The notes under the pieces were generated by a model. The model did no database searches, was not told the origin of the DNA, and saw only the letters and a list, made by a program, of their open reading frames with translations. The translations under genes and the position numbers were made by a program. From contig NZ_GL892014.1 in the NCBI RefSeq assembly GCF_000213575.1, positions 1 to 35,164 of the forward strand: a stretch of 35,164 nt of DNA, in the 5' to 3' direction. Positions 1 to 33,740 of this stretch are shown here, piece by piece. Each line of letters begins with the position of its first letter. The first letter of the stretch is position 1. Source of the DNA: Dysgonomonas mossii DSM 22836 (lineage in GTDB: Bacteria > Bacteroidota > Bacteroidia > Bacteroidales > Dysgonomonadaceae).

Positions 1-840
1 ATCAATCGATATATTTGGTATAAATTCCGTTGTACCACCGTTTAAATCAGTACTCACAACCTGTTTGAATGGAACATACGGAGAAGGCATTACCGTGCCT
101 GTGACGATCATTGATATGTCTTTATTCGTCATAGGCAGCATCATACGCATATATACCGCTCCACTTGCCTTGTTCACGGTAATATTAAGCTCTGTGCTTC
201 CCGATGAAGTAATATTGTAGCTACCCGCCACAAACTTTCCTGATGCATCATATTGGCAGCTTAAACGATATCTTTGACAAAGCAATGATGTTTCACCGTC
301 CCATCTAATAAGTGGTGTTACATACCACCCTGGACTAGTTATTATATTTCCGTTCGTATCTAAGCCTTTGTTAAATCCGTCTGAATAGTTTGGGTTAAGC
401 CTATTTGTTCCGTATTGTAGTTTAATGCCATTTTGCGTAAATTCAGTATCAAGTTGCGCCCCTGTCTTGGTTGTACCGCCTGCTAGCATTACGTCAGAAG
501 GTATAACAATGCCTATATCAACCCACTTGTTAGGATCATAAGGGTTTGTTTCTGAAATTACATCATTGTATTTCCAGTAATGACCTGTATCAGTTGCTTT
601 GTATGTATCACCTTTCTTTGGTGTTGTTACCTCTGATTTTATGGTAGCTACATTAGCTTTTGATCCTAGAAGGTTTGTTCCTGATACTGCATCTTGCAAT
701 TCGTTTTTTGTAGCTAATGTATCAAGAGATACTTTAGATGTCCTTCCTGATTTATACCCTATTGCTTCAAACCCTGCTGGCGAATCCTCTGTAGGTAATT
801 GAGATGGTTGTATGCCGTTTATATTTATATTATCTGCCAT
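1..840 (-). CDS. Tail fiber / receptor-binding-type protein, N-terminal 280 residues (runs off window)
   Basis: The frame is open from an ATG at 838-840 to the window edge, so the C-terminus is missing. The N-terminus (MADNININGIQPSQLPTEDS) and the following 'GFEAIGYKSGRTSKVSLDTLA' style segment resemble the virion-attachment ends of phage tail fibers. About residues 75-110 hold a 'KGDTYKATDTGHYWKYN' segment seen in carbohydrate-binding or fiber repeats. The rest is Thr/Gly/Asn-rich and beta-like. It starts one base after the stop of the Dit-like gene, so the two are probably translationally coupled. It is the most distal tail gene seen, which fits a fiber or adhesin that contacts the host surface. 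The role comes from position and composition; no catalytic motif is visible. Confidence 0.7.
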   Translation of the reverse strand, partial: MADNININGIQPSQLPTEDSPAGFEAIGYKSGRTSKVSLDTLATKNELQDAVSGTNLLGSKANVATIKSEVTTPKKGDTYKATDTGHYWKYNDVISETNPYDPNKWVDIGIVIPSDVMLAGGTTKTGAQLDTEFTQNGIKLQYGTNRLNPNYSDGFNKGLDTNGNIITSPGWYVTPLIRWDGETSLLCQRYRLSCQYDASGKFVAGSYNITSSGSTELNITVNKASGAVYMRMMLPMTNKDISMIVTGTVMPSPYVPFKQVVSTDLNGGTTEFIPNISID

Positions 841-841
841 T

Positions 842-1321
842 TCAAACTATAATAGTTTCGTTGTTATCAGTTAATAAAAGCTCATTGTTCTCTGTAACCA
901 GTACATCATAAGTTATCGTTTCGCCCAAAGGTTCAGTAAATCGAATAGCCACTTTCCCATCTGTAAATCCTATACCCATATCAAGGCTTTGCGGGTCTTC
1001 CATGTACAAGTAGTATGTTTCATCTATTGATGTCACAGAAAGCTTAATTTGTCCGTTACTTATCTCACTCTTGAAGTCTTTGTACTTTGTCAAATATTCG
1101 CTTCGTGTTGAACAAGTAATGTCAAAAATCAATATAATTTGCCTGCTGTTTTTCTTTGGGTTAGTTATGAAAACTTGTTTGCCGTCTTGAGAACGAGACT
1201 CATTCTCTATATATGACTTCATAGGATAAGGAGAAAGCAGATTTTCATAAGAGTTATCCGCTAACTTGACATTCCATGTAGACCATGCGTCTTTGTCATT
1301 TATAAATAATTCGCCTGTCAT
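842..1321 (-). CDS. Small tail protein, possibly distal-tail (Dit)-like
   Basis: This 159-residue protein begins MTGELFINDKDAWSTWNVKL. That kind of N-terminus (a short beta hairpin followed by 'D...W.V') recurs in tail proteins of Bacteroidetes siphophages. No signal peptide, membrane segment or catalytic motif is seen. The composition suggests a beta-rich structural protein. It lies between the tail hub (separated by the left island) and the tail fiber, one base upstream of the fiber start codon. A role joining tail tip and fiber is inferred from order only. Neck or other minor tail functions cannot be excluded. Confidence 0.55.
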   Translation of the reverse strand: MTGELFINDKDAWSTWNVKLADNSYENLLSPYPMKSYIENESRSQDGKQVFITNPKKNSRQIILIFDITCSTRSEYLTKYKDFKSEISNGQIKLSVTSIDETYYLYMEDPQSLDMGIGFTDGKVAIRFTEPLGETITYDVLVTENNELLLTDNNETIIV

Positions 1322-1407
1322 TATTTTTTTATTTTAAAGTTACTTATAGCTTAAAAACCTATTACCCTAATATGCTTTTACGAGTAAACAGTATCTATTT
1401 TGTTTGC

Positions 1408-1725
1408 TTATAAGTATTTAATCCACGAAAACAGCTTCCTTTTGATTAAATATTCATCATCTAATTGATTGATATACGCTTCACGTTCGAATGAAATATT
1501 ATAGTATGCTAACATCTTATCCCGGTACTGAATAAGCCTTATTAACCACTCTATACAATACCATAAGTAAAAGAATACCCAAAGCATTTCGTTCCCTTGC
1601 TTGACGTGTATTGCTTCGTGGTTCTTGCTAGTTTCGTTAAGCTCTTTTCTTGCAAACACAACCCCAAACAACGTAATAGCTATAAATCCTTTCGGCGGTA
1701 TCAACTTATTTTGTACTATCTTCAT
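1408..1725 (-). CDS. Small membrane-associated protein with HExxH zinc-peptidase motif
   Basis: The 105-residue product contains H36-E37-A-I-H40, a classical HExxH zinc site. A hydrophobic stretch at about residues 47-66 (aromatic, Trp/Tyr/Phe-rich) could lie in or on the membrane. E80 or E82 in 'FEREAY' is a plausible third zinc ligand. This arrangement recalls a reduced M56 or gluzincin peptidase. The gene follows the terminator at 1753-1784, so it is probably transcribed separately from the GHKL gene upstream. Whether it is active, and on what substrate, cannot be judged. It is unusual to find it inside a tail module. Confidence 0.55.
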   Translation of the reverse strand: MKIVQNKLIPPKGFIAITLFGVVFARKELNETSKNHEAIHVKQGNEMLWVFFYLWYCIEWLIRLIQYRDKMLAYYNISFEREAYINQLDDEYLIKRKLFSWIKYL

Positions 1726-1752
1726 GTTTTTGATTTAAAGATACAGGCATGA

Positions 1753-1784
1753 AAAAAGCCTACCATGTGATTAGTAGGCTTTGG
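1753..1784 (-). terminator. Intrinsic terminator after the GHKL-type gene
   Basis: A perfect 9-bp stem (AAAGCCTAC at 1755-1763 paired with GTAGGCTTT at 1774-1782) has a 10-nt loop. Read on the minus strand it is followed by a run of six T. It lies 32 bp beyond the stop of the 427-residue gene and closes the minus arm of the left island. Confidence 0.8.
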
Positions 1785-1815
1785 ATAAATAGTATTTGAG
1801 TGGTTTGATTATTAT

Positions 1816-3099
1816 TTATATTGAATAAGCATTTTTACGTTTCATATATTCAATAAACTCAGTAATAATAGCAGTTTGAAAACTACGAGTTTCGTCTTCT
1901 ACTCCATATTTTATGTGAATAAATTCTTCAAGAATAGTATTTACTGTTTCATTTATACCCCTAGTTAATCCTACATCTGATAATATAATATCATCTCCTC
2001 TTATAGTTCCAAATACTTTTTTATTATCAAATACTGCTACTTTTATATTATAAGGAATGACAAACCCGCACTCTTTAAGAAATTCATTCGCTTCTTTTAT
2101 AGTCTGCAATGCTAGACTATCAGGGTGTATAATACGATAAACTGATCCGTTTCTACTCATATCAAATCTATCGCCTACTTGTTCATGTCCTAATTTACCT
2201 CGAATTGCCGTATATACTTTAGTAGGAACTATTGCAAATTGATGAACCTCATCTGGTTTAAGCAGACCAGCAAATCCTTGTGGAGCTACATTTATATTCC
2301 TTATAACTTCCTCTGCCTCACAAGATAAGTAGCTACTATTTATAGTAATATAATCACCTATATTAGATTCTATATTATTAGGATTATTAGAATCAATTAA
2401 AATCTGTCTAAATACTTCTTTATTTGTACAACTAAATATCAATCTCCAAAGATACTCGGATACTTCCCATGAGTATTTTATAAGACGATTCTCATCAATA
2501 GATATGTCATGGAAATCATAATCAAAAGAACTATTTAAATTTGTTTCATGACAACGAATTCCTTTTCTATAAATATTTGCTTTAGAACCTGTCTTTTTTA
2601 GTATTCTACCATATTTTCCTTCAAATAATATCTCTTTGTTTTCTGCAAAATAATTATCAAAATTAGAGAAGAAGTCCATCACATCCGTTTTTATATCAAA
2701 ATATACATGAGTTTCTCCTTCTGCAGGGATAATATCGTTAACGCATTCTATTGAAGCTTCCCCTTCATCAATAGCATTGCAATATAATTCCCTAACAGCT
2801 TGCCAGAACTGCCAATCAACACCCATCTCAGTGGTAATAGATGATTGTTCACCATTAACATAAATACGATTAAATATATGACCTCTAAACTCTTCCTGTT
2901 TAGTTTCGATAAATATTTCTTCTTTTCCTGCAAATATTTTTACAATGTATTTATTCCGTAATAAATAGGCTAGAGCATATTTATTACCGCTACCAAAACG
3001 ACCTATTTTAGTACTATCATCTCGTTTTGATGATACACCTACTAATGTAAGTGCCCTAGCATCAATATGTCCCTTGTTTTTAATCTTAACGTATTTCAT
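1816..3099 (-). CDS. GHKL/Hsp90-like ATPase with permuted motif order and degenerate C-terminal HExxH
   Basis: This 427-residue protein has the signatures of a Bergerat-fold ATPase in unusual order. Residues 32-48 (IGRFGSGNKYALAYLLR) match the Hsp90/MORC G2 lid pattern 'IGxFGxGxxSA'. Just before it, residues 6-25 (IKNKGHIDARALTLVGVSSK) align with the G1 region 'DxGxGM...L..LGTIAKS', although the key Asp is Asn8. The N-box, which normally comes first, is downstream at residues 99-113 with correct spacing: E104, N108, D111. The C-terminus has E391-E392-F-I-H395 followed by E403, like an HExxH site that has lost its first His. It is the last gene of a three-gene minus unit with its own promoter and terminator. 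ATPase activity, ligand and role are inferred; defence, anti-defence or chaperone-like roles are all possible. Confidence 0.6.
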   Translation of the reverse strand: MKYVKIKNKGHIDARALTLVGVSSKRDDSTKIGRFGSGNKYALAYLLRNKYIVKIFAGKEEIFIETKQEEFRGHIFNRIYVNGEQSSITTEMGVDWQFWQAVRELYCNAIDEGEASIECVNDIIPAEGETHVYFDIKTDVMDFFSNFDNYFAENKEILFEGKYGRILKKTGSKANIYRKGIRCHETNLNSSFDYDFHDISIDENRLIKYSWEVSEYLWRLIFSCTNKEVFRQILIDSNNPNNIESNIGDYITINSSYLSCEAEEVIRNINVAPQGFAGLLKPDEVHQFAIVPTKVYTAIRGKLGHEQVGDRFDMSRNGSVYRIIHPDSLALQTIKEANEFLKECGFVIPYNIKVAVFDNKKVFGTIRGDDIILSDVGLTRGINETVNTILEEFIHIKYGVEDETRSFQTAIITEFIEYMKRKNAYSI

Positions 3100-3129
3100 A
3101 TTATATAAATTATTATTATTTCATTTCCA

Positions 3130-3273
3130 TTATTTCGGAAGCTCTATATTTCTTATCCGTATTTCGTAAGCTATACGCTTGCGGTTCTCGTGTGTCAAGT
3201 TGGTAGATAACATATCCTGTAAATGATCTGTAGACAGTTGATCTAGTTCTGTGAATGATATATCTTTTTTCAT
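3130..3273 (-). CDS. 47-residue protein of unknown function
   Basis: An ATG at 3271-3273 opens 47 codons ending with TAA at 3130-3132. The product starts MKKDISFTELDQLSTDHLQD and is charged and probably helical. It begins two bases after the stop of the 79-residue gene and is followed 30 bp later by the GHKL-type gene. That tight spacing supports a real gene in one transcript. A purine-rich stretch lies just before the start. No family is recognised. It could be a small partner or regulator of the ATPase. Confidence 0.55.
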   Translation of the reverse strand: MKKDISFTELDQLSTDHLQDMLSTNLTHENRKRIAYEIRIRNIELPK

Positions 3274-3275
3274 AA

Positions 3276-3515
3276 TCAATCCCCCGAATATGCACGGTTA
3301 GCGTAATAGCTTTCTATACCTACATTGTTACTTGCATTAAAAGAATAAATAGAAGTATCAACAGGTTTTCTGTTAGCTTCTCTGCGAGCTTCTAATACAT
3401 CACATTTAGCTCTTTGCCATGCAATAGAAAGACATTCAGAAAATGATACGCTTGCGTTTCTTCTTTTGATCGACCATGCTGCCTTAAATATCCTGCTTTT
3501 GTTGTAACGTGTCAT
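3276..3515 (-). CDS. Small helical protein, unknown function, first gene of the left-island minus arm
   Basis: The 79-residue product begins MTRYNKSRIFKAAWSIKRR and continues with 'SFSECLSIAWQRAK'. This is a two-helix basic pattern (NKS-I-K-AW ... FSE-L--AW--AK) common in small proteins of Bacteroidetes phages and conjugative elements. Its molecular role is not known to me. The remainder is Ser/Asn/Tyr-rich and probably disordered. It is the promoter-proximal gene of the minus unit and overlaps none of its neighbours. Binding to nucleic acid is a guess from the basic helices only. Confidence 0.55.
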   Translation of the reverse strand: MTRYNKSRIFKAAWSIKRRNASVSFSECLSIAWQRAKCDVLEARREANRKPVDTSIYSFNASNNVGIESYYANRAYSGD

Positions 3516-3548
3516 AATTAATTAAACTTTAGTTGTATAATCACAATG

Positions 3549-3556
3549 CAAATATA
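3549..3556 (-). promoter_or_regulatory. Putative Bacteroidetes -7 element for the left-island minus arm
   Basis: Minus-strand TATATTTG fits TAnnTTTG and lies 34 bp before the start at 3515. No clear -33 TTTG is found at the expected spacing, so this rests on the -7 match, the position and the very AT-rich divergent gap. Confidence 0.4.
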
Positions 3557-3639
3557 ACTATATGTTTAATATTGTAGATGTTTATTTAGTTAATAAATAT
3601 TAAATAATTATATATATAGTTTTATTATTTAGTTTTTAA

Positions 3640-3647
3640 TATATTTG
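3640..3647 (+). promoter_or_regulatory. Putative Bacteroidetes -7 element for the XRE gene and plus arm
   Basis: TATATTTG fits TAnnTTTG and lies 33 bp before the XRE start at 3681. The -33 region is weak. With the element at 3549-3556 on the other strand it forms a divergent pair. The short AT-rich gap between them includes partial dyads (for example AATATT at about 3568 and 3596) that could be operators for the XRE protein. Confidence 0.4.
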
Positions 3648-3680
3648 TAGTTTAATTAATAACTAAATAACAATTTACAT

Positions 3681-3974
3681 ATGATTAAACTAAGAGTTAA
3701 GGACATATTGAGAGAAAAGGGTATTACACAAAAAGACTTAGCTGATAGACTCAATATTACAGAGGTTGGATTGTCGAAATCGTTAAGCGAAAAAGGAAAT
3801 CCTACAATATCAACATTGGATAATATTGCAAATGCATTAGATGTTAATATAACTGAGCTGTTTGAGCCAAAAGGTATAAGTGGAATTATAAAGATTGATA
3901 ATAAATCTTACGAAATAAATTCCCTAGACGACATTAAAAAATTATTGGCTGAAATAGAGGATAATAAAAGTTAA
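3681..3974 (+). CDS. XRE-family HTH transcriptional regulator
   Basis: Residues 4-60 form a compact Cro/CI-type helix-turn-helix: 'DILREKGITQKDLADRLNIT' then 'STLDNIANALDVNITELF'. The C-terminal part (GIIKIDNKSYEINSLDDIKK) is the short tail common in small Bacteroidetes XRE proteins. At 97 residues it lacks the protease-like domain of LexA/CI repressors, so cleavage-type induction is unlikely. It faces away from the 3276-3515 gene across a promoter-rich gap. Autoregulation and control of the GHKL unit are therefore likely. It leads a plus-strand unit of membrane and envelope genes. Confidence 0.85.
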   Translation: MIKLRVKDILREKGITQKDLADRLNITEVGLSKSLSEKGNPTISTLDNIANALDVNITELFEPKGISGIIKIDNKSYEINSLDDIKKLLAEIEDNKS

Positions 3975-3978
3975 TTTG

Positions 3979-3986
3979 TAGTTTTG
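3979..3986 (+). promoter_or_regulatory. Possible -7 element before the TM2 gene
   Basis: TAGTTTTG fits TAnnTTTG and lies 24 bp before the start at 4010, just after the XRE stop codon. No -33 TTTG is seen at the right spacing. In such AT-rich DNA a lone match is weak evidence. Confidence 0.25.
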
Positions 3987-4009
3987 TGGATTAACTTAAA
4001 TCTTATTGT

Positions 4010-4363
4010 ATGAAAAATAAGACAGTAGCAGCATTATTAGCAATATTCTTAGGTTGTCTAGGTATTCATAAATTCTATTTAGGTAAAGGCGGGCAAGGGG
4101 TTTTATATCTTCTTATAACAGTATTTACGTTAGGTATAGCAGGTATAATAATAGCTATAATTTCTTTAATTGAAGGTATTATATTAATATCAATGAGCGA
4201 CAAAGAATTTGATATGAAGTATAATAAACAGTATATGGCAGCGAACCAAAATAACAATCATAGAGGTGATTATATTGAAGATATACGCAAGCTATACCAA
4301 CTCAAACAAGATGGTATCATAACCGAACAGGAATTTGAGGATAAAAAAAGAAAGATGTTGTAA
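4010..4363 (+). CDS. TM2-domain membrane protein with C-terminal SHOCT domain
   Basis: The 117-residue protein has a TM2 domain. The first hydrophobic helix is at about residues 5-17, followed by the hallmark 'GIHKFYLGKGGQGVLYLL' and a second helix to about residue 62. A linker leads to a C-terminal SHOCT-type helix pair, 'IRKLYQLKQDGIITEQEFEDKK', where 'L..LkdqGiITeeEFe.kK' is the family pattern. TM2 proteins sit in the inner membrane and SHOCT is thought to mediate oligomerisation. It is the second gene of a plus unit whose other products also target the envelope. A superinfection-exclusion or host-modifying role is plausible but inferred. Confidence 0.85.
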   Translation: MKNKTVAALLAIFLGCLGIHKFYLGKGGQGVLYLLITVFTLGIAGIIIAIISLIEGIILISMSDKEFDMKYNKQYMAANQNNNHRGDYIEDIRKLYQLKQDGIITEQEFEDKKRKML

Positions 4364-4388
4364 AATAAACTCACTTAATAATATAAAT

Positions 4389-4700
4389 ATGGAAGGATTT
4401 TATTTATTTATAGGTATCGTTATTATTGTATTCGGTATTCTTCAAATTATATTGTTTTTTAAGCTTTGGGGTATGACAAACGATATTCGAGAAATAAGAA
4501 ATGAATATATAAATAAATCAGAAACCTATAATACAAATGATGATATCATTATAAATAAATCGGTAATACATAAAGTTTCAGGTAAAACACTTATTGCGAA
4601 ATTGTATGACAATGATACAGATAAATATGTGTGTTATTCAGAATCAGGAATATTTGAAAATAGATTTTCTAAAGACGATCTTATTTTTTTAGAAGATTAG
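4389..4700 (+). CDS. Single-span membrane protein, unknown function
   Basis: The start ATG at 4389 is preferred. It gives 103 residues beginning MEGFYLFIGIVIIVFGILQI, and it avoids the overlap with the TM2 gene that an upstream in-frame ATG at 4335 would create. Residues 4-26 form one strong transmembrane helix. The rest is a charged soluble region with 'SGKTLIAKLYDNDTDKYVC', perhaps a small beta domain facing the cytoplasm. No family is recognised. It lies 25 bp after the TM2 gene and 20 bp before the lipoprotein gene, so it belongs to the same unit. Confidence 0.6.
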   Translation: MEGFYLFIGIVIIVFGILQIILFFKLWGMTNDIREIRNEYINKSETYNTNDDIIINKSVIHKVSGKTLIAKLYDNDTDKYVCYSESGIFENRFSKDDLIFLED

Positions 4701-4720
4701 AATAATAAATTAATACTATA

Positions 4721-5122
4721 ATGAAAAAATACATATTGCTTTTCATGCTATTGCCTTTTTTTATTTCTTGCTCAAGCGATGAGAACGAACCTATGCAGGA
4801 TTATACAAGCTTTACGCTAGAGAATAAATCTTCCGTTGATTTACCGAATGTCGTTATTGGTTATCTAACTGATGGAAGGTATAAGAAGATTGCTGATTTA
4901 GGAAATATAAATAAAGGAGAAATATCAAATGAGATTAGAATAGCTAATTCATCTATTAAAGAGATATATGTATTTTTTGATTATTCTGATTATGTAGCTG
5001 CAATAAGAGCTGATATATCTTTTATAGTTTATGAAAATAAACTAAATAAATTTGTTCTGCCTAGCGGAATAAAGGGTATTGCGATAACGGATAAAACAGA
5101 TCCGGCACAATACCCTCAATAA
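4721..5122 (+). CDS. Predicted surface lipoprotein
   Basis: The N-terminus has a short basic start (MKK), a hydrophobic core and a lipobox ending FFISC, with Cys17 as the lipidated residue. Cys is followed by SSDENE. In Bacteroidetes such Ser/Asp/Glu-rich +2 to +5 signals direct lipoproteins to the outer surface. The mature part is about 117 residues, with no cysteine and a beta-like pattern. It is the last gene of the plus unit and stops 1 bp before the tail hub gene on the other strand. In a phage, such a lipoprotein could block a receptor and prevent superinfection. That role is inferred. Confidence 0.75.
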   Translation: MKKYILLFMLLPFFISCSSDENEPMQDYTSFTLENKSSVDLPNVVIGYLTDGRYKKIADLGNINKGEISNEIRIANSSIKEIYVFFDYSDYVAAIRADISFIVYENKLNKFVLPSGIKGIAITDKTDPAQYPQ

Positions 5123-5123
5123 T

Positions 5124-7325
5124 CTACTCAACTATTTCTAAGTTACCGTTATTGCTCCATACCGTACCTATTGGTTCAAAATCGGAACTAGTTGGTATTT
5201 CACTATTAATTATCAAAGTTGGATCACCTAAAAGAGGTTTAAATGTTATCCCTTTAGGTGTAATTACACATTGGCTCATTAAGTCGCCGTTTATTACACC
5301 TGAAACTTTGTCGGTGTACATGTCTCCAAGTGTCAACTTAGTAGAAATAATGTCATTTGTTGAATCCGTTGAATTTATCCATTCTAATTTTGCAATAGAG
5401 ATACTTGAACCTCTAAATCTTGCAAACATTTCAATGGATTTATTTTCAGCGTCAAAAACTATCTTATTTCCGTTGGTATCTGAACTTGTTACTTTCCCTC
5501 TCATAACTGCCTGCCCCATTATGACACGCCCGCCATGAGTAACCGCAAATCCTGCAACATCATCTGTAGCTTCTGGGTTTTCGACCAAGTTTATGGCTTG
5601 TTGTAAAGTTCCTCCACCCCAGAACGCAATATCATCATCATTCTGCTTTACACCGTTTACGCCTGCTGTATTTACCCAAACATCACCCTGCATTAATCCC
5701 ATTTGAATTAATGTAGTCAATATAAGACCTCCATCTATCGTTGTTTCATTCTGTAAAGCAGTACGCAAGTAATTCATACCTCTAATGCTTCGTGTGTTAT
5801 TGTTAGATGCTCTCATAGCCTCTAAATAATTCACATCAGCCTCTTTCTTGTTGCTGTCTACTTTGGCTTCTAATGCTTTTCTACGGCTATAACGAGGCTT
5901 TTCTCCGACTAAGTATTCATCTTTACAAGACACAGGGTATTTAGTAAATCCACGAATACGAGACACTTTTTCGCCTCCGTTAAAGATCAAACTTTTAAGT
6001 TTTACGCTTTGCCCTAAACCCATATCTAACCCATAAGCAGCAACCCTAAAAGGATTAGCCATACATGTATAAGTAGCGTTTTCTTCTTGAAGGCTTGCCA
6101 TTTTCGCTTGTGCCTCTGTTAATAGTTCCTGTTCTGCTTCTCCCACATACTGATCGCCAACTAAAGATATATTGAAGTTATAAAGCACATAGAAGTCACC
6201 TACACGTGGACATAGTAAGTCATTCGGTATAATTAAATCTGGGTTATCCTGATTGTTTATTATTTCAAATTCTTGTCCGTGCTCTTCTGTATTGTGGAAA
6301 GCTAGTTCAAAATCACGACCTGATAGGAAGCTGTTTTCGCCAAATTGAAGCGATAAAGTTAGCCCCGGTAATATATATTCAGAATTGAAGTTCAAACCAC
6401 TATCCTTGAAATAAAATACCGTCATTTCTATACCATCATCATTTTTTACGGTTGCCGTTCTAAGTGCTGTAATCGTTCCTGTACGCTTCGGATATATATA
6501 ATCAAATGTAAATACTTTCTCAATAATCTTATTCCCTGTCATATTCGGGAAAGCGTCTATATAGTCTCCGTTGGAAATTGGGAGTCTTAAGCGTTTTTGT
6601 ACAATAGCGTCCACAACTTCACTGCTTCCTGTACTTCTGTAGTTTGATGGTATATTTCGAGTCCCACCAAAAGCATACATACGTGTACAATATTCGTCAC
6701 TGTTTTCATTTGAGCGTGTAATGTCTATCAATTCTATTTCTCGCCTTAGCTCCATCAGTTCGCCTTTTGAATAGCTATACACTAAGTTTATTGTTTTAGC
6801 TTCATAGTCTAAATACCATTCGCAATTAAACGCTTCTGCAACGTCTGTAAGAAAATCGAAAACATTCTGAGAACTGAATGTAAGATTCTGCATATCGGTA
6901 GGCTCTACAACTCCTACGGTCCATGTTTCACCGGTGTATGCGTTTATATTATCACAACCTATCTGTAAGAATGTTCCGGCATGCTCCATTAGCGTCCATT
7001 CAGCCTCTTTCAATCCTTGATAAATATACCAACAAATAAAATCCTGCCAGAACATTTCAGGGGCTTCAAACTTTGGTTCATACTTGTAATTCTGAAATCC
7101 GCTTTCTGTTGGCTGACAGTCGGTGCGTATGGCATATCTTATACCCTTATAGTCTATATAATCAGCACGTACAAAGTCATATTTTATTGTTAGCGGAAAT
7201 GTGAACTGAACATAATGTTCTGACATTAATTCATTAGCCTGCTTGAAATCGTTAGGAATATCTAGGCGCACTTTAGGTTCGCCCCATGCATTGAAAATTG
7301 TAAGATCGTTACCTATTGTAATCAT
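5124..7325 (-). CDS. Tail tip / baseplate hub protein (prophage endopeptidase-tail type)
   Basis: This 733-residue protein immediately follows the tape measure gene. Its first about 420 residues have the mixed beta pattern of siphophage hub proteins (ITIGNDLTIFNAWGEPKVRL, then long segments such as 'FDFLTDVAEAFNCEWYLDYE', typical of the gp27-like hub fold). The region around residues 480-560 is charged and helical. The last about 200 residues are Gly/Asn/Thr-rich, with 'GFAVTHGGRVIMGQAV', and look fiber-like. It probably combines a hub with a fiber-carrying C-terminus. No catalytic residues could be assigned. It ends with TAG, which is relevant to stop-codon use in this genome. Confidence 0.7.
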   Translation of the reverse strand: MITIGNDLTIFNAWGEPKVRLDIPNDFKQANELMSEHYVQFTFPLTIKYDFVRADYIDYKGIRYAIRTDCQPTESGFQNYKYEPKFEAPEMFWQDFICWYIYQGLKEAEWTLMEHAGTFLQIGCDNINAYTGETWTVGVVEPTDMQNLTFSSQNVFDFLTDVAEAFNCEWYLDYEAKTINLVYSYSKGELMELRREIELIDITRSNENSDEYCTRMYAFGGTRNIPSNYRSTGSSEVVDAIVQKRLRLPISNGDYIDAFPNMTGNKIIEKVFTFDYIYPKRTGTITALRTATVKNDDGIEMTVFYFKDSGLNFNSEYILPGLTLSLQFGENSFLSGRDFELAFHNTEEHGQEFEIINNQDNPDLIIPNDLLCPRVGDFYVLYNFNISLVGDQYVGEAEQELLTEAQAKMASLQEENATYTCMANPFRVAAYGLDMGLGQSVKLKSLIFNGGEKVSRIRGFTKYPVSCKDEYLVGEKPRYSRRKALEAKVDSNKKEADVNYLEAMRASNNNTRSIRGMNYLRTALQNETTIDGGLILTTLIQMGLMQGDVWVNTAGVNGVKQNDDDIAFWGGGTLQQAINLVENPEATDDVAGFAVTHGGRVIMGQAVMRGKVTSSDTNGNKIVFDAENKSIEMFARFRGSSISIAKLEWINSTDSTNDIISTKLTLGDMYTDKVSGVINGDLMSQCVITPKGITFKPLLGDPTLIINSEIPTSSDFEPIGTVWSNNGNLEIVE

Positions 7326-7528: not shown

Positions 7529-10500
7529 TTACATTTCGTCAGTATTTCTCTTTATACCTTCTATACCATCTCTAATAGCATACAACTCCTTAGTGTTCTT
7601 ATTTATATCCTTTAATTCATAATAAGAATTGATAGCTATATTCCTGTTTTCTTCCATCATGCGTTCTATTCTTAGCGATGATTGGCTAAGTACACCCAGA
7701 GGCATAGCGATAGTATCAAAATTAAACTTCTCGCTTACAGGCTGATTCCATTGCGCTATACGTGCGACGTTTTGATCTAGTGATATAAGGCGCATTTGCG
7801 AACCTGTTTCTATACCTACAAGTTTATCTCCTGTATCTTGTGACATAGAAACTGAATAACCAGACGATGGAGTTTGAGATGATCCTTTTGACTTATCGGT
7901 ATTCTTTAAATCTATCCCTGTAGCATCTTTTATATTTTGGTTTATAGAATCTACCATGCCTTGTATTGCAGGGAGTTGTGTTTTATACCTATCCATTACA
8001 GAATTAGTTTCTTTAGCTACTGCTTCGGATAATTGAGCCTCGGTTAAATTCCCTTTAGAGTATTCTTCATAAAGTTTTGCTATATTATCTTTGAAGTCTT
8101 TAAAAACATCTTTCAGTAATATAGTTTTTATCATATCGGACACTATATCCCTAAATGTTTCTTTCGCATAATCTTTAAAGCTATCTAAAGCGTTTTTCCC
8201 TTCATCAAACCAATCCCATATAGAGCTAACCATATTATCAACTAACGGCTCATACAAGGAATTTACATATTCTCTTAGTTGTGCTCTAAATTCATTATAT
8301 TGCTCTGTAAGTGTCTTTAATTCTTCTAAAGTCTCTTTTGTCTGCCCTACTAATTTATCTCCGTATTTTTCGAGTATGACACCTGCTAGTTCTTGATTGA
8401 GCATACCATCAGCACCAAACAATTGAGTATCTAAACCTTTTTTAAATAGATCTTTGTTGTTATTAATCCATGTTTGCAGATCTTCTGTTTTTTGAGATTT
8501 ACCGCCGATCCCGGAACCAAGAAAACCGCTACTCTTTTTTCTTGTCTCGATCCTTAGATTATTTACAGCCGCAGTAGTACCTTCTTTGTACTTTTTATTT
8601 AGCAAGTCGAATCCGAATGTTATCTTACTAACCCAACTAACAGCAGATTTAAATGTATTTGTAAGCCAACCTCCCGAACCTTTATTTTCATAAATAGCCT
8701 GTTCTTCGAGCATCTTATCTCTATATGACTCGAATATCTTAGTTTGAAGTTCTTTATAGTCCTTTAGGTTTCGAAGGCTATCGTTTCCAAACCATGAGTT
8801 TTCAGCTTGACGAGCTTTTAATACTGCAATTTCATATTCATTGACAGCATCACGCATATCGTTTATTCTTTCTATCTTCTCATCATACTTTTCGTATTGA
8901 CTGAAAGCATCAGGAAGGATAGAATTAAGCTGTTTCATCAACTGGATAGCGGTAGAGATAATAGTAAGTATGACAGATGCTTTTTCTACAACAGAAATAG
9001 CTTGTGCACCGGTCTGCGCAACTTTTTCTATACCTTCGCTTGCAGTAGTGTAGAATGATGTAATATCCCCGATAAATGAAATTATTTCGCCTGATGTGCC
9101 ACCAAGTGCATTTCCAAGACCGGACATCTCTTTAGCTAATGCAGATACTTGATCTCTTATTTTCTTTTGAGTATCTAAAACCTTTTTGTTTTTATTATAA
9201 TATTCATCTTTGGCTTTATTTACCCTCTTTATTGCTTCTTCTTCCGTTAATAGTGGATCACCAATACCTAATTTAACCAGTCTTAAATCATTTTCGGCTT
9301 TTATTAATCGTTGATTGGCTTTTACAGCTTCATCTTTCTGTTTTATAAGAGATCCGTATAGGTCACGATTAGAAAGCTCATCGGCTATAGATTGTATGGT
9401 AGCTGTATATTCTCGAAGGTCTTTCGGCGATAATGTTTTTGCAGCCTCTTCTTTGAATTTTTCAAATTGACCAAGAAGAGAATTAAGCGTTTCTGTTGAT
9501 GTTGTTCCCAGATCTTCGAATGCTCTGATATATTCTGGAGCCTCTTTCATGCGCTCAAAGTCGAATGATATAAGATCTTTTCCCTTATCAGTTGTCGCTT
9601 TTGCAATGGATCTATTAAGTTTATTTACTGCTTCTTTATCTCCTTTCTCTTGAGCCTTTTCCCTTAATTTTATAAGGGTATCAATGTCCTTGTTGAACTT
9701 CTTTTCTATATCGAGTCTTTGATCTGCATAAGATTGATATTTGTCTGTTAACTCCTTTAAAGTATCTTTGTTGGCTTTTAATAAAATAGCAAATGATATA
9801 TTTGTCTTTTTATTTATTTGCTCTTGAATATATGCATCGCTCAATTCTTTTGGCAATAGCGTTTTATCAAAAGTTGCAAAATTAAACCCGGTATCTGTAC
9901 CATTATTTTTTATATAAATATTCTTGGCTGCTTCTTGCTGATCTTTTATCATCTTTTGGCGGAACTCTTTAATTGATATAAGTTCTTTTGCCATATTCAA
10001 CTGATTTTGCCTATATCTTTTATCAAAACTATCATCCTCAATATCCAACATTTTTTGCTCGTACTCAAGTTGTTGTTTTGCTGATTCGCTATCGAGTTCG
10101 GCTTGAAGATTAAGTAGTTTCAATGCTGCATCTCGCATCCTTTGAGCTCTCTTTTCTCCTTTAGGATCTTCTTCTTTCGTATTTTCTAACCCCGGTGTAT
10201 ATTTTGATGAGCCTATTGTATATTCCAATGATACATGTCCCATCTTTTTACCGGCTAACTGTTTAGCTTCATTTATTGATTTTGAAACCTCTAATGTTGC
10301 TTGCGCTGTATTTTGAGCGAAGTTTTTAATAAAATTATTATACGCTTCTAATGCTTTAGCAGGAGAACCAATATTACTCATAACATCTGCAAATGCACCC
10401 ATAGCATCAATGGCTATTTTTACATCTTTTTTAATATTTGCAAATACAGCAGTAAATATGACATATACGCCACCTATAGCAGCTCTCAATGTTTCAGAAG

Positions 10501-11461
10501 TATTATACCAATAAATAAATTTATTTACTACTACTTCTATTCTTTTAACGAGTAACGGCAAGTATCTTTCAGCTAAAGCACCTATAGAATCGAACGCACT
10601 AGCAACTATCTCATTCCATATAACCCTTATTCCAAGCAAGGCATTGCCTACTTTTAGTTGTGCATTCTCTCTCTTAGCTGCTGCAATCTGTTCTTTATCG
10701 GCTGCCGATAACACATAATTTCCCTGCTCTTTTAGTTTTTCATTTATCATATCTATGGCAGTTCCCATAAAATCGCCTGTTTTTTTAGCTCTTTTCTGTA
10801 ACTCTGCCACATTAATTTGTAGGTTATCAAGTATTTTTATTGATTTTCTTCCAAGTCCTGTTACAATAGAATCTACTAAATAATCTACGCTTTGCCCTGT
10901 ATCTGCTGCTCTTTGTTGTGCAAACTGTAGAAGTCCACCAAGTTTTTGAACAGGAATGCCAAAGTTTTGAGCTTGAACTGCTGCTTTCATCAATTCAAGA
11001 TCATTAATTGTTCCTTTTGTCGATTTTCTTAATCCATCTAATAATGTTGGATCATTTAATCCATCGAACGCCCTTTTGACTCCTTGCGCTTGTGTTGCCA
11101 TTGCAATACCCTGTGCTGCGAACTCCATAGCAACAGATGTTAGTTTAGCTATTGCAGCTCCAACAGCTAATATAACCCCTCCGATCTTAGCAATGCCAGT
11201 ATTTAATGCACCTAAACCCGACGTTGTTGTCTGAGTCGCTTGATTGGCTATATTTTGCTGAGATGTATATTTCTGTATATTTAATTGAAGTTCATTAACT
11301 CTTTTTGTTGTGTAGAACAACTCGTTATTGAGACGATCATAAGCTTTTGGGTCGCTTTCTCTTTTCATACCTGCAAGAGAAGCCCTTAATTCGTCTATTC
11401 TTCTTTTTAAGTTAATAACCTCTTGGGCGTTCGCCTTTATGTTTATTGCTGATCCTGCCAT
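7529..11461 (-). CDS. Tail tape measure protein
   Basis: At 1310 residues this is the longest gene in the window. It directly follows the tail chaperones and the gp10-like gene, the standard place for a tape measure. It is mostly charged helix and coiled coil (residues 10-65 and long stretches at about 430-880). Hydrophobic helices lie at about residues 88-125 and 325-345, with further Gly/Ala-rich ones near 830. No lytic transglycosylase or peptidase motif was seen. By the usual scaling (about 0.15 nm per residue) it would fit a tail near 190-200 nm. It starts 4 bp after the preceding gene. Confidence 0.9.
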   Translation of the reverse strand: MAGSAINIKANAQEVINLKRRIDELRASLAGMKRESDPKAYDRLNNELFYTTKRVNELQLNIQKYTSQQNIANQATQTTTSGLGALNTGIAKIGGVILAVGAAIAKLTSVAMEFAAQGIAMATQAQGVKRAFDGLNDPTLLDGLRKSTKGTINDLELMKAAVQAQNFGIPVQKLGGLLQFAQQRAADTGQSVDYLVDSIVTGLGRKSIKILDNLQINVAELQKRAKKTGDFMGTAIDMINEKLKEQGNYVLSAADKEQIAAAKRENAQLKVGNALLGIRVIWNEIVASAFDSIGALAERYLPLLVKRIEVVVNKFIYWYNTSETLRAAIGGVYVIFTAVFANIKKDVKIAIDAMGAFADVMSNIGSPAKALEAYNNFIKNFAQNTAQATLEVSKSINEAKQLAGKKMGHVSLEYTIGSSKYTPGLENTKEEDPKGEKRAQRMRDAALKLLNLQAELDSESAKQQLEYEQKMLDIEDDSFDKRYRQNQLNMAKELISIKEFRQKMIKDQQEAAKNIYIKNNGTDTGFNFATFDKTLLPKELSDAYIQEQINKKTNISFAILLKANKDTLKELTDKYQSYADQRLDIEKKFNKDIDTLIKLREKAQEKGDKEAVNKLNRSIAKATTDKGKDLISFDFERMKEAPEYIRAFEDLGTTSTETLNSLLGQFEKFKEEAAKTLSPKDLREYTATIQSIADELSNRDLYGSLIKQKDEAVKANQRLIKAENDLRLVKLGIGDPLLTEEEAIKRVNKAKDEYYNKNKKVLDTQKKIRDQVSALAKEMSGLGNALGGTSGEIISFIGDITSFYTTASEGIEKVAQTGAQAISVVEKASVILTIISTAIQLMKQLNSILPDAFSQYEKYDEKIERINDMRDAVNEYEIAVLKARQAENSWFGNDSLRNLKDYKELQTKIFESYRDKMLEEQAIYENKGSGGWLTNTFKSAVSWVSKITFGFDLLNKKYKEGTTAAVNNLRIETRKKSSGFLGSGIGGKSQKTEDLQTWINNNKDLFKKGLDTQLFGADGMLNQELAGVILEKYGDKLVGQTKETLEELKTLTEQYNEFRAQLREYVNSLYEPLVDNMVSSIWDWFDEGKNALDSFKDYAKETFRDIVSDMIKTILLKDVFKDFKDNIAKLYEEYSKGNLTEAQLSEAVAKETNSVMDRYKTQLPAIQGMVDSINQNIKDATGIDLKNTDKSKGSSQTPSSGYSVSMSQDTGDKLVGIETGSQMRLISLDQNVARIAQWNQPVSEKFNFDTIAMPLGVLSQSSLRIERMMEENRNIAINSYYELKDINKNTKELYAIRDGIEGIKRNTDEM

Positions 11462-32876: not shown

Positions 32877-33740
32877 TTAAAATTGTAATGATGTTTGTTT
32901 TGATTTAGATGCTTTTTCAAAATAGACTTTTAAATCATCAAGACCGCAAAATCCGTTACATTCGGTTAGTGGTTCTGGCTCCCGACCTTTGAACATTGAA
33001 ATGTCTTTTACATCGGGATAGTCTGGGTGTGGCAATAAGAATACAGGAACATATCCTCCTTTTGCTTTAGCTTCTTTACTCTGGTCTTTACATATGGTTG
33101 CCGGTTCACCTTTCAGATTCGTAAGTTCATGCTCTCTCATAGCCATTCGATAAAATTTATCGTATTCCTCACGCTGTCTTTTCTGCCAATATCCGATACC
33201 TCCCTGAACGCATCCTGTTTTGTCGCAATTGTTATTTTCGTATCCGTTCAAATATGGAGCAGGAAGAACTATACCAGCATCTTCGAGTATCTTAACGCAA
33301 TCTTTTTTTAGCAAACCATAGAGTAAGAGAGGATATATAGCTTTTACTTTTGGGTTGTTGATCGTCATAGAAACGGCTCTATGAGCTTCTTTTAAATCAA
33401 AGCCGAACGCTTGATGCATCCAAGTATTATTTGTTTGCCAATCTTCACGAACTCTACGTTTTAAAACCGTAGAACAGATAGCACCATGAGCGGTGTTTAA
33501 GGATAAATATGTTCGCCAGACACCCTCTATTGATTCAAATTGACTAGATATTGTTTCTATTGGTAGTCCATACCATTTTTCGCAATCTCGTAGAAACCTA
33601 TAAGTATCATCATGTTCGTTCTTAGTGTCTATAAATATAATCCGAACACGATCTTTTCCATATAAATCAATACAGAGCTTACAAGTTACAGCAGAAGTTA
33701 CCCCCCCCGACCACCATGCGATTACATCTTTCCGTTTCAT
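32877..33740 (-). CDS. PP-loop (PAPS reductase / DndC-like) protein
   Basis: The 287-residue protein carries a PP-loop 'SGGVTS' at residues 11-16, then 'VRIIFIDTKNEHDDTYRFL' (the second strand with acidic residues) and 'GAICSTVLKRR' (C89), the PAPS-reductase type CT-x-LK site. Five cysteines (C89, C172, C177, C261, C265) could hold an Fe-S cluster or zinc. Such adenylating enzymes act in sulfur transfer, phosphorothioate-type DNA modification or tRNA thiolation. The codons for Ser-Gly-Gly-Val contain a G8 run (33701-33708), so length changes there would destroy the frame. It is separated from the methyltransferase by two unknown genes. Confidence 0.8.
   Translation of the reverse strand: MKRKDVIAWWSGGVTSAVTCKLCIDLYGKDRVRIIFIDTKNEHDDTYRFLRDCEKWYGLPIETISSQFESIEGVWRTYLSLNTAHGAICSTVLKRRVREDWQTNNTWMHQAFGFDLKEAHRAVSMTINNPKVKAIYPLLLYGLLKKDCVKILEDAGIVLPAPYLNGYENNNCDKTGCVQGGIGYWQKRQREEYDKFYRMAMREHELTNLKGEPATICKDQSKEAKAKGGYVPVFLLPHPDYPDVKDISMFKGREPEPLTECNGFCGLDDLKVYFEKASKSKQTSLQF
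33701..33708 (-). repeat. Poly-G8 tract in the PP-loop codons
   Basis: Eight consecutive G on the minus strand span the last base of Ser11, Gly12, Gly13 and the first base of Val14, i.e. the ATP-binding loop near the 5' end of the gene. Gain or loss of one G would switch the gene off. Confidence 0.8.

Follow-up and report, generated by a model that had tools for sequence, protein, structure and literature searches.

Hsp90, gyrase, MutL, MORC, and histidine kinases belong to the GHKL ATPases, which are among the best-studied ATPases and are recognized by the order of their sequence motifs, so what is to be made of a phage-type gene whose product carries these motifs in the wrong order? The gene in question encodes a protein of 427 amino acids and lies in a stretch of 35,164 nt of Dysgonomonas mossii DSM 22836 (GCF_000213575.1; NZ_GL892014.1, positions 1-35,164) that was analyzed as a whole and is called the window here (Table 1). 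A first-pass annotation made from the letters of the DNA had placed the G1 and G2 motifs of this protein ahead of its N-box (E104, N108, D111), and this layout can indeed be read from the open reading frame, with a G1/G2-like block at residues 5-44 (KIKNKG...SSKR...KIGRFGSGNKYALA) and the N-box RELYCNAID (R103, E104, N108, D111) ca. 65 residues downstream of it, whereas GHKL proteins have the order N-box, G1, G2. By analogy to other GHKL proteins, we take E104 to be the base, N108 the Mg2+ residue, and the glycine block the lid. In the PHROGs collection, the protein matches phrog_8203 from end to end (E 5.7e-185) and has piecewise matches to phrog_6077 (E 3.6e-20), and both of these families are filed there under "unknown function".

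Table 1. Features at the locus of the 427-aa protein, in positions of the window.
Feature	Position	Strand	Basis
Gene of the 427-aa protein (phrog_8203), very probably a permuted GHKL protein with a SprT-like domain	1816..3099	-	ORF; phrog_8203 match over residues 1-427
G1/G2 block, residues 2-61 (canonical GHKL domains have this part second; here it comes first)	2917..3096	-	Sister-profile match
Transposed N-box segment, residues 85-118, with W96, W99, R103, E104, N108, and D111 (canonical GHKL domains start with this part; here it comes second)	2746..2847	-	Sister-profile match of residues 85-111
Domain 2, residues 138-233, with E203 and R205	2401..2688	-	Sister-profile match
C-terminal SprT-like zincin domain, residues 300-427	1819..2202	-	SprT profile and L328 C-terminus
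EEFIH motif, residues 391-395 (EExxH where zincins have HExxH)	1915..1929	-	Sequence and conservation
Intrinsic terminator 3' of the gene	1752..1782	-	11-bp stem, 6-nt loop, six U at the end

Searching 50,697 phage records by tblastn with the 427-aa query, we found matches in 71 of them, among them YuA gp29 and further genes of Yuavirus, with a query coverage of at least 80% in 65 and less than 60% identity throughout. Their annotations, among the 60 of 71 matches listed, are mostly hypothetical with a few cases of HATPase, ATP-binding protein, or "hydrolase, metallopeptidase". A scan of viral contigs counted 354 relatives, of which 80 were examined, and a scan of genome contigs gave 26 loci; the plasmids searched for relatives and a DNA-level search of phages with the window gene returned no match. 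The family alignment comprises 106 members (the query and 105 of 125 ORF matches, leaving out ORFs of less than 300 aa or with an open end as well as identical ones and copies of the window gene), and Escherichia phage ERS-1 (L013), an unverified record with broken frames, was left out of the evidence. A profile search for homologs had been suggested as a check on the motifs, and both the N-box (E..xN..D) and the GxxGxG of the G2 box came through it well: no substitution is seen at G21, K25, I32, G33, G36, G38, W96, R103, E104, N108, and D111 in 105 of 106 members, the last one having a gap, and E203 and R205 of domain 2 are identical in all 106. The G1 box, in which an Asp normally reads adenine in GHKL proteins, has instead Asn (91 members), Ser (12), Thr (2), or a gap (1) at this position, and ATP use by the phrog_8203 protein is therefore not assured. 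The literature matches listed, from a search with partial coverage and most subscription journals outside, held no description of the family.

Direct comparisons of permuted members to curated GHKL and SprT models gave weak matches, a point against the GHKL-SprT reading. The NCBIfam sacsin ATP-binding model NF047352 aligns to residues 13-40 (E 2.5e-4, 21.5 bits, cut-off 50), the sole Pfam match of the query is irrelevant (E 0.19), and Pfam searches among 99 permuted members gave SACS in four (best E 0.049), SprT-like in three (0.015), and HATPase_c in one (0.054); the query's own matches stay below the curated cut-offs. Against the PDB, the family profile weakly matches three MORC2 chains with residues 15-41 at G2 (E 3.2-3.3), and no close solved relative of the query family was found there by sequence. 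A sortase that came up in the same comparison (E 0.22) was set aside as unrelated, and the PDB search with a profile of the sister family described below returned nothing relevant.

The rearrangement becomes visible as a real evolutionary event because a phage sister family, phrog_6077, keeps the ordinary order. When 395 genomes were searched for phrog_6077, ten had a match, and the window gene was hit in three pieces: phrog_6077 profile positions 41-105 at its N-terminus, positions 7-38 at the N-box (2746-2841), and positions 160-242 downstream. Beyond the window gene, five loci were inspected and three could be read as canonical frames. A tblastn search with residues 1-80 alone yielded 124 phage records, among them Vequintavirinae and phages of Vibrio that are absent from the full-query search, and ten annotated sister proteins were taken from such absent groups (among the 60 of 124 records listed). 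In all ten, the N-box comes first and is followed by G1, G2, and domain 2, and the four of them that were tested match phrog_6077 almost from end to end (E 2.3e-88 to 3.8e-137) and also phrog_8203 (E 1e-12 to 7.5e-8). Contigs gave the same result: 161 sister relatives were counted, and among the 80 loci examined, some of which are phages that had also been fetched (L268 is phiTE), 77 are canonical (73 distinct sequences), none is permuted, and three could not be called by pattern, two of these being canonical by eye and one an ORF whose start is too late to tell. One sister protein (L252) exceeds the cut-off of Pfam HATPase_c_3 with 27.0 versus 25 bits, the other sister proteins tested being below it, and as sister and query families are homologous, it ties the 427-aa protein to a GHKL member above a curated threshold.

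Each part of the query domain finds its counterpart in this sister family. Residues 2-61 align to positions 53-111 of the sister profile (score 100.4, shuffle maximum 26.2), residues 85-111 to positions 14-40 (53.2, maximum 23.5), and residues 138-233 to positions 154-258 (57.8, maximum 24.1), with none of 60 shuffles reaching the score in any of the three comparisons. The conserved residues are equally spaced in both families, and each of them has domain 2 after the ATPase domain. Against the sister profile, the query as it stands scores 155.4 (E 6.8e-22), and with the canonical order restored it scores 199.7 (E 1.9e-28).

The same gain is seen with canonical profiles from genomic loci, which took in 16 of 30 sacsin-type and 19 of 30 HATPase_c_3-type loci and were used separately and combined (35 sequences). 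In hhalign, residues 1-135 as they stand score 56.9 against the sacsin-type, 36.2 against the HATPase_c_3-type, and 40.9 against the combined profile, compared to 73.9, 55.0, and 65.1 once re-ordered as 77-135 followed by 1-76; shuffling columns 77-135 gave maxima of 61.3, 35.5, and 46.6, and the re-ordered scores were reached in 0 of 100 shuffles each. Taken by itself, the N-box piece falls on the N-box of the template in all three profiles, scoring 26.6, 36.0, and 32.3 versus shuffle maxima of 17.1, 14.4, and 15.9 (again 0 of 100 each). Doubling the query domain produced an alignment that runs through the junction with the sacsin-type and HATPase_c_3-type profiles, whereas the canonical profiles, doubled as a control, gained nothing (115.7 to 115.6 and 121.8 to 121.6), and doubling either half of the domain alone changed scores little, at most from 38.5 (residues 1-60) to 44.9 (residues 1-76 doubled) with the combined profile. 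The gains on doubling and re-ordering, together with the three-piece match to a sister of canonical order, bear out the earlier suspicion of a real circular permutation. That the motifs are chance matches or an assembly artefact, as one might suppose given how common short glycine-rich motifs are and how irrelevant the sole Pfam match of the query is, can be put aside as extremely improbable: chance is ruled out by the conservation over 106 members, by the shuffle controls, and by a sister family in the other order, and an assembly error by the open frames in many contigs and records. The 427-aa protein is thus almost certainly built on a circularly permuted GHKL domain, as judged from these alignments, and we infer from homology that this domain has a Bergerat fold.

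In a FastTree reconstruction, a fast method that we applied to 122 sequences, 105 permuted members (of the 106 aligned) fall into one clade (0.941) and ten canonical phage proteins into another (0.998), and both stand together apart from seven sacsin-type outgroups (0.855). Because the outgroups used are canonical, we take the permuted order as derived. Among 124 ORFs, a pattern search found none in which G1 is flanked by two N-boxes, as it would be in a tandem intermediate. The N-terminal strand and the N-box helix would have left their place ahead of G1 and come to lie behind the G2 strands, domain 2 would have remained C-terminal to the ATPase domain after the permutation, and the moved elements would still meet in the fold to form one nucleotide pocket.

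The C-terminal domain had been described as keeping a degenerate remnant of an HExxH site, of which the peptidase-like origin stands and the decay does not. Residues 300-427 score 27.5 against a SprT profile built from 20 of 30 loci (shuffle maximum 14.7, 0 of 60), a domain-wide similarity that stays below the Pfam cut-off. The HExxH motif itself is found in a single member (L068, HEAMH), EExxH in 91 of 106, and neither in 14, and E-E-H-D-R-Q at residues 391, 392, 395, 402, 405, and 408 are kept together in 80 of 106; we therefore regard this as a conserved altered site. An M78/ImmA peptidase (11.8 with a profile from 19 of 30 loci, reached by 7 of 60 shuffles) and a GHKL domain (12.1, reached by 3 of 60) were tried for this C-terminus and rejected, and comparing it to the sister profile gave no match (16.5, E 0.093).

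One of the 80 sister loci (L328, positions 2486-3778 of an IMG/VR contig) encodes a canonical-order phage GHKL protein with an intact C-terminal HELAH. Its last 110 residues match SprT-like (E 4.2e-4) and WLM (E 0.0012) of Pfam, both below the cut-offs, and score 46.4 against the C-terminal profile of the query family (maximum 15.4, 0 of 100), and hmmsearch with this profile within the ORFs of the 80 loci picks out L328 at E 8.8e-10. A search with patterns drawn from L328 alone found its own contig only. The simplest reading, taken from this single case, would be a GHKL-SprT ancestor with a later change of metal ligands in which the first His of the SprT-like metal domain became Glu. Asp402, whose place we judged by eye, is probably the third metal ligand, and we conjecture that the E/H/D triad binds metal.

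The altered site can also be read in another way, with the permuted GHKL protein as an Hsp90/sacsin-like chaperone or scaffold and the C-terminal domain as a non-catalytic metal- or protein-binding module, i.e., a pseudo-peptidase. We consider this possible but doubtful: no other general GHKL profile used scores as high as the sacsin-type one, Glu stands at the place of the peptidase His in 91 of 106 members, and one sister protein is annotated as chaperon protein htpG, but it would be unusual for a dead site to keep six residues together in 80 of 106 members, and DNA recombination genes recur as neighbors of the relatives.

In the window, the gene lies between tail genes (a tail protein at 842-1321 and tail-region ORFs at 5124-7325 and 7529-11461), so that its earlier assignment to a phage tail operon fits this locus, but annotated relatives elsewhere are found near recombination and replication genes: a few genes after the primase in YuA-type phages, near a Gam-like protein gene in AH02, and downstream of ERF and YqaJ genes in a Bradyrhizobium phage. 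The gene had also been credited with its own promoter and terminator. Of these, the terminator is well supported (z -4.2, 0 of 200 shuffles as stable), though the scan that listed promoter-like sites did not report it, and the promoter is unsupported: positions 1-6000 hold 31 promoter-like sites where 34.0 +- 6.5 would be expected, and the site in front of the gene directly adjoins its ATG.

Across the relatives, 144 of 546 neighbors were chosen for a scan with a preference for longer ORFs, and the resulting counts are thus not frequencies. Pfam detected ERF in four of these, DUF3799, PRTRC_E, and helicase domains in three each, and YqaJ in two, so that even the commonest family occurs in only 4 of 144 and the context is mixed; PHROGs gave a similar picture. 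ERF, RecE/YqaJ-type exonucleases, helicases, and HNH enzymes recur among the neighbors. We note that the three PRTRC matches are to PRTRC system protein E (PF19556).

Several other genes close to the family or in the window deserve mention in their own right. Just downstream of the 427-aa gene, positions 1408-1725 (minus strand) encode a 105-aa protein with NHEAIH...FEREAY and, by eye, a hydrophobic middle, which matches phrog_15610 "protease" (E 3.4e-54); this is a small HExxH protein, perhaps membrane-bound, beside an EExxH protein. On the other side, four short plus-strand ORFs at 3681-5122, set against the minus-strand tail genes, look by eye repressor-like (HTH), TM2-like, of no recognized kind, and lipoprotein-like, a group that resembles a lysogenic-conversion cassette. 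A 121-aa gene directly precedes the permuted GHKL gene in three Yuavirus-type phages (L004 7587-7952, L006 4585-4950, L007 3582-3947) and is called "putative metallopeptidase" in one record and appears by eye to encode a small membrane protein. A PAPS-reductase-like gene is found in the window at 32877-33740 (minus strand; phrog_424, E 1.4e-51), and Bradyrhizobium phage ppBeUSDA76-2 has a PAPS reductase gene around 2 kb from its relative.

MORC and MutL act as clamps, and SprT and SPRTN are proteases. From this background and the gene context, with recombination genes as recurring neighbors, we propose an ATP-gated factor that may act on phage nucleoprotein, an assignment of role that we hold tentatively. 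ATP binding would close or dimerize the module of GHKL domain and domain 2 on phage nucleoprotein, and, while the phage recombines and replicates, the closed module would present the SprT-like domain to protein bound to DNA. That the 427-aa protein uses nucleotides, binds metal, and has this target and role is likewise what we infer. The permuted GHKL identity and the proposed function, taken jointly, make a likely account, while the fully specified version, in which a permuted Bergerat ATPase arose once in phages, is coupled to a re-liganded E/H/D SprT-like site, and serves as an ATP-gated remover or remodeler of proteins on recombining phage DNA, is a speculative one.

A counter-defense or host-takeover factor, as proposed for T4 rIIA orthologs, would be a different and rather unlikely role. 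The gene is accessory, the genome of the window being the one carrier among the 199 of the relatives set, and the canonical sisters differ in their C-termini much as the T4 rIIA orthologs do, which a jumbo-phage review describes as having an N-terminal GHKL domain and a variable C-terminus (PMC7824862). However, the likeness to rIIA is by description only, and PADLOC matched the query to TmtA over no more than residues 15-38 (E 0.0013) and found no match in three other family members.

Returning to the permuted domain and its ATP-gated reading, a natural permutation with a surviving unpermuted phage sister makes the tolerance of the Bergerat domain to rotation directly testable. Searches based on motif order can miss permuted GHKL proteins, and both phage families are indeed without assigned function in PHROGs. 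The SprT-like link, in turn, offers a concrete biochemical test for a gene that is found across many phages.

Among known systems, the SprT-like and WLM zincins (PF10263, PF08325) share a profile match with the query's C-terminal domain, with L328 linking both, but they have HExxH where the query has EExxH and Asp402 at the likely place of the third ligand. T4 rIIA has the canonical motif order. Its orthologs, as the jumbo-phage review describes them, are likewise phage proteins that join a GHKL domain to a C-terminus of variable kind (PMC7824862). The N-box and G1/G2 of GHKL/HATPase_c_3 proteins (Hsp90, MutL, MORC) align by profile with the query once it is re-ordered, but these sequences, selected by that very pattern, have the order N-box, G1, G2 and a G1 Asp. 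The sacsin-type N-terminal domain (NF047352), which has 24 matches over its cut-off, 15 of them in frames longer than 1000 aa, scored highest among the general GHKL profiles used and has HNG instead of D.G at G1 in 9 of the 16 sequences used, but is canonical in order. The phrog_6077 proteins of phiTE, 4MG, and other Vequintavirinae as well as Vibrio, Xanthomonas, and Luteibacter phages, annotated as hypothetical, "histidine kinase-like ATPase", "histidine kinase", or "chaperon protein", share with the query family the W-x6-RE-x3-N-x2-D helix, an equally spaced G1/G2 block, and domain 2, and differ from it in their C-termini and in an N-box that precedes G1.
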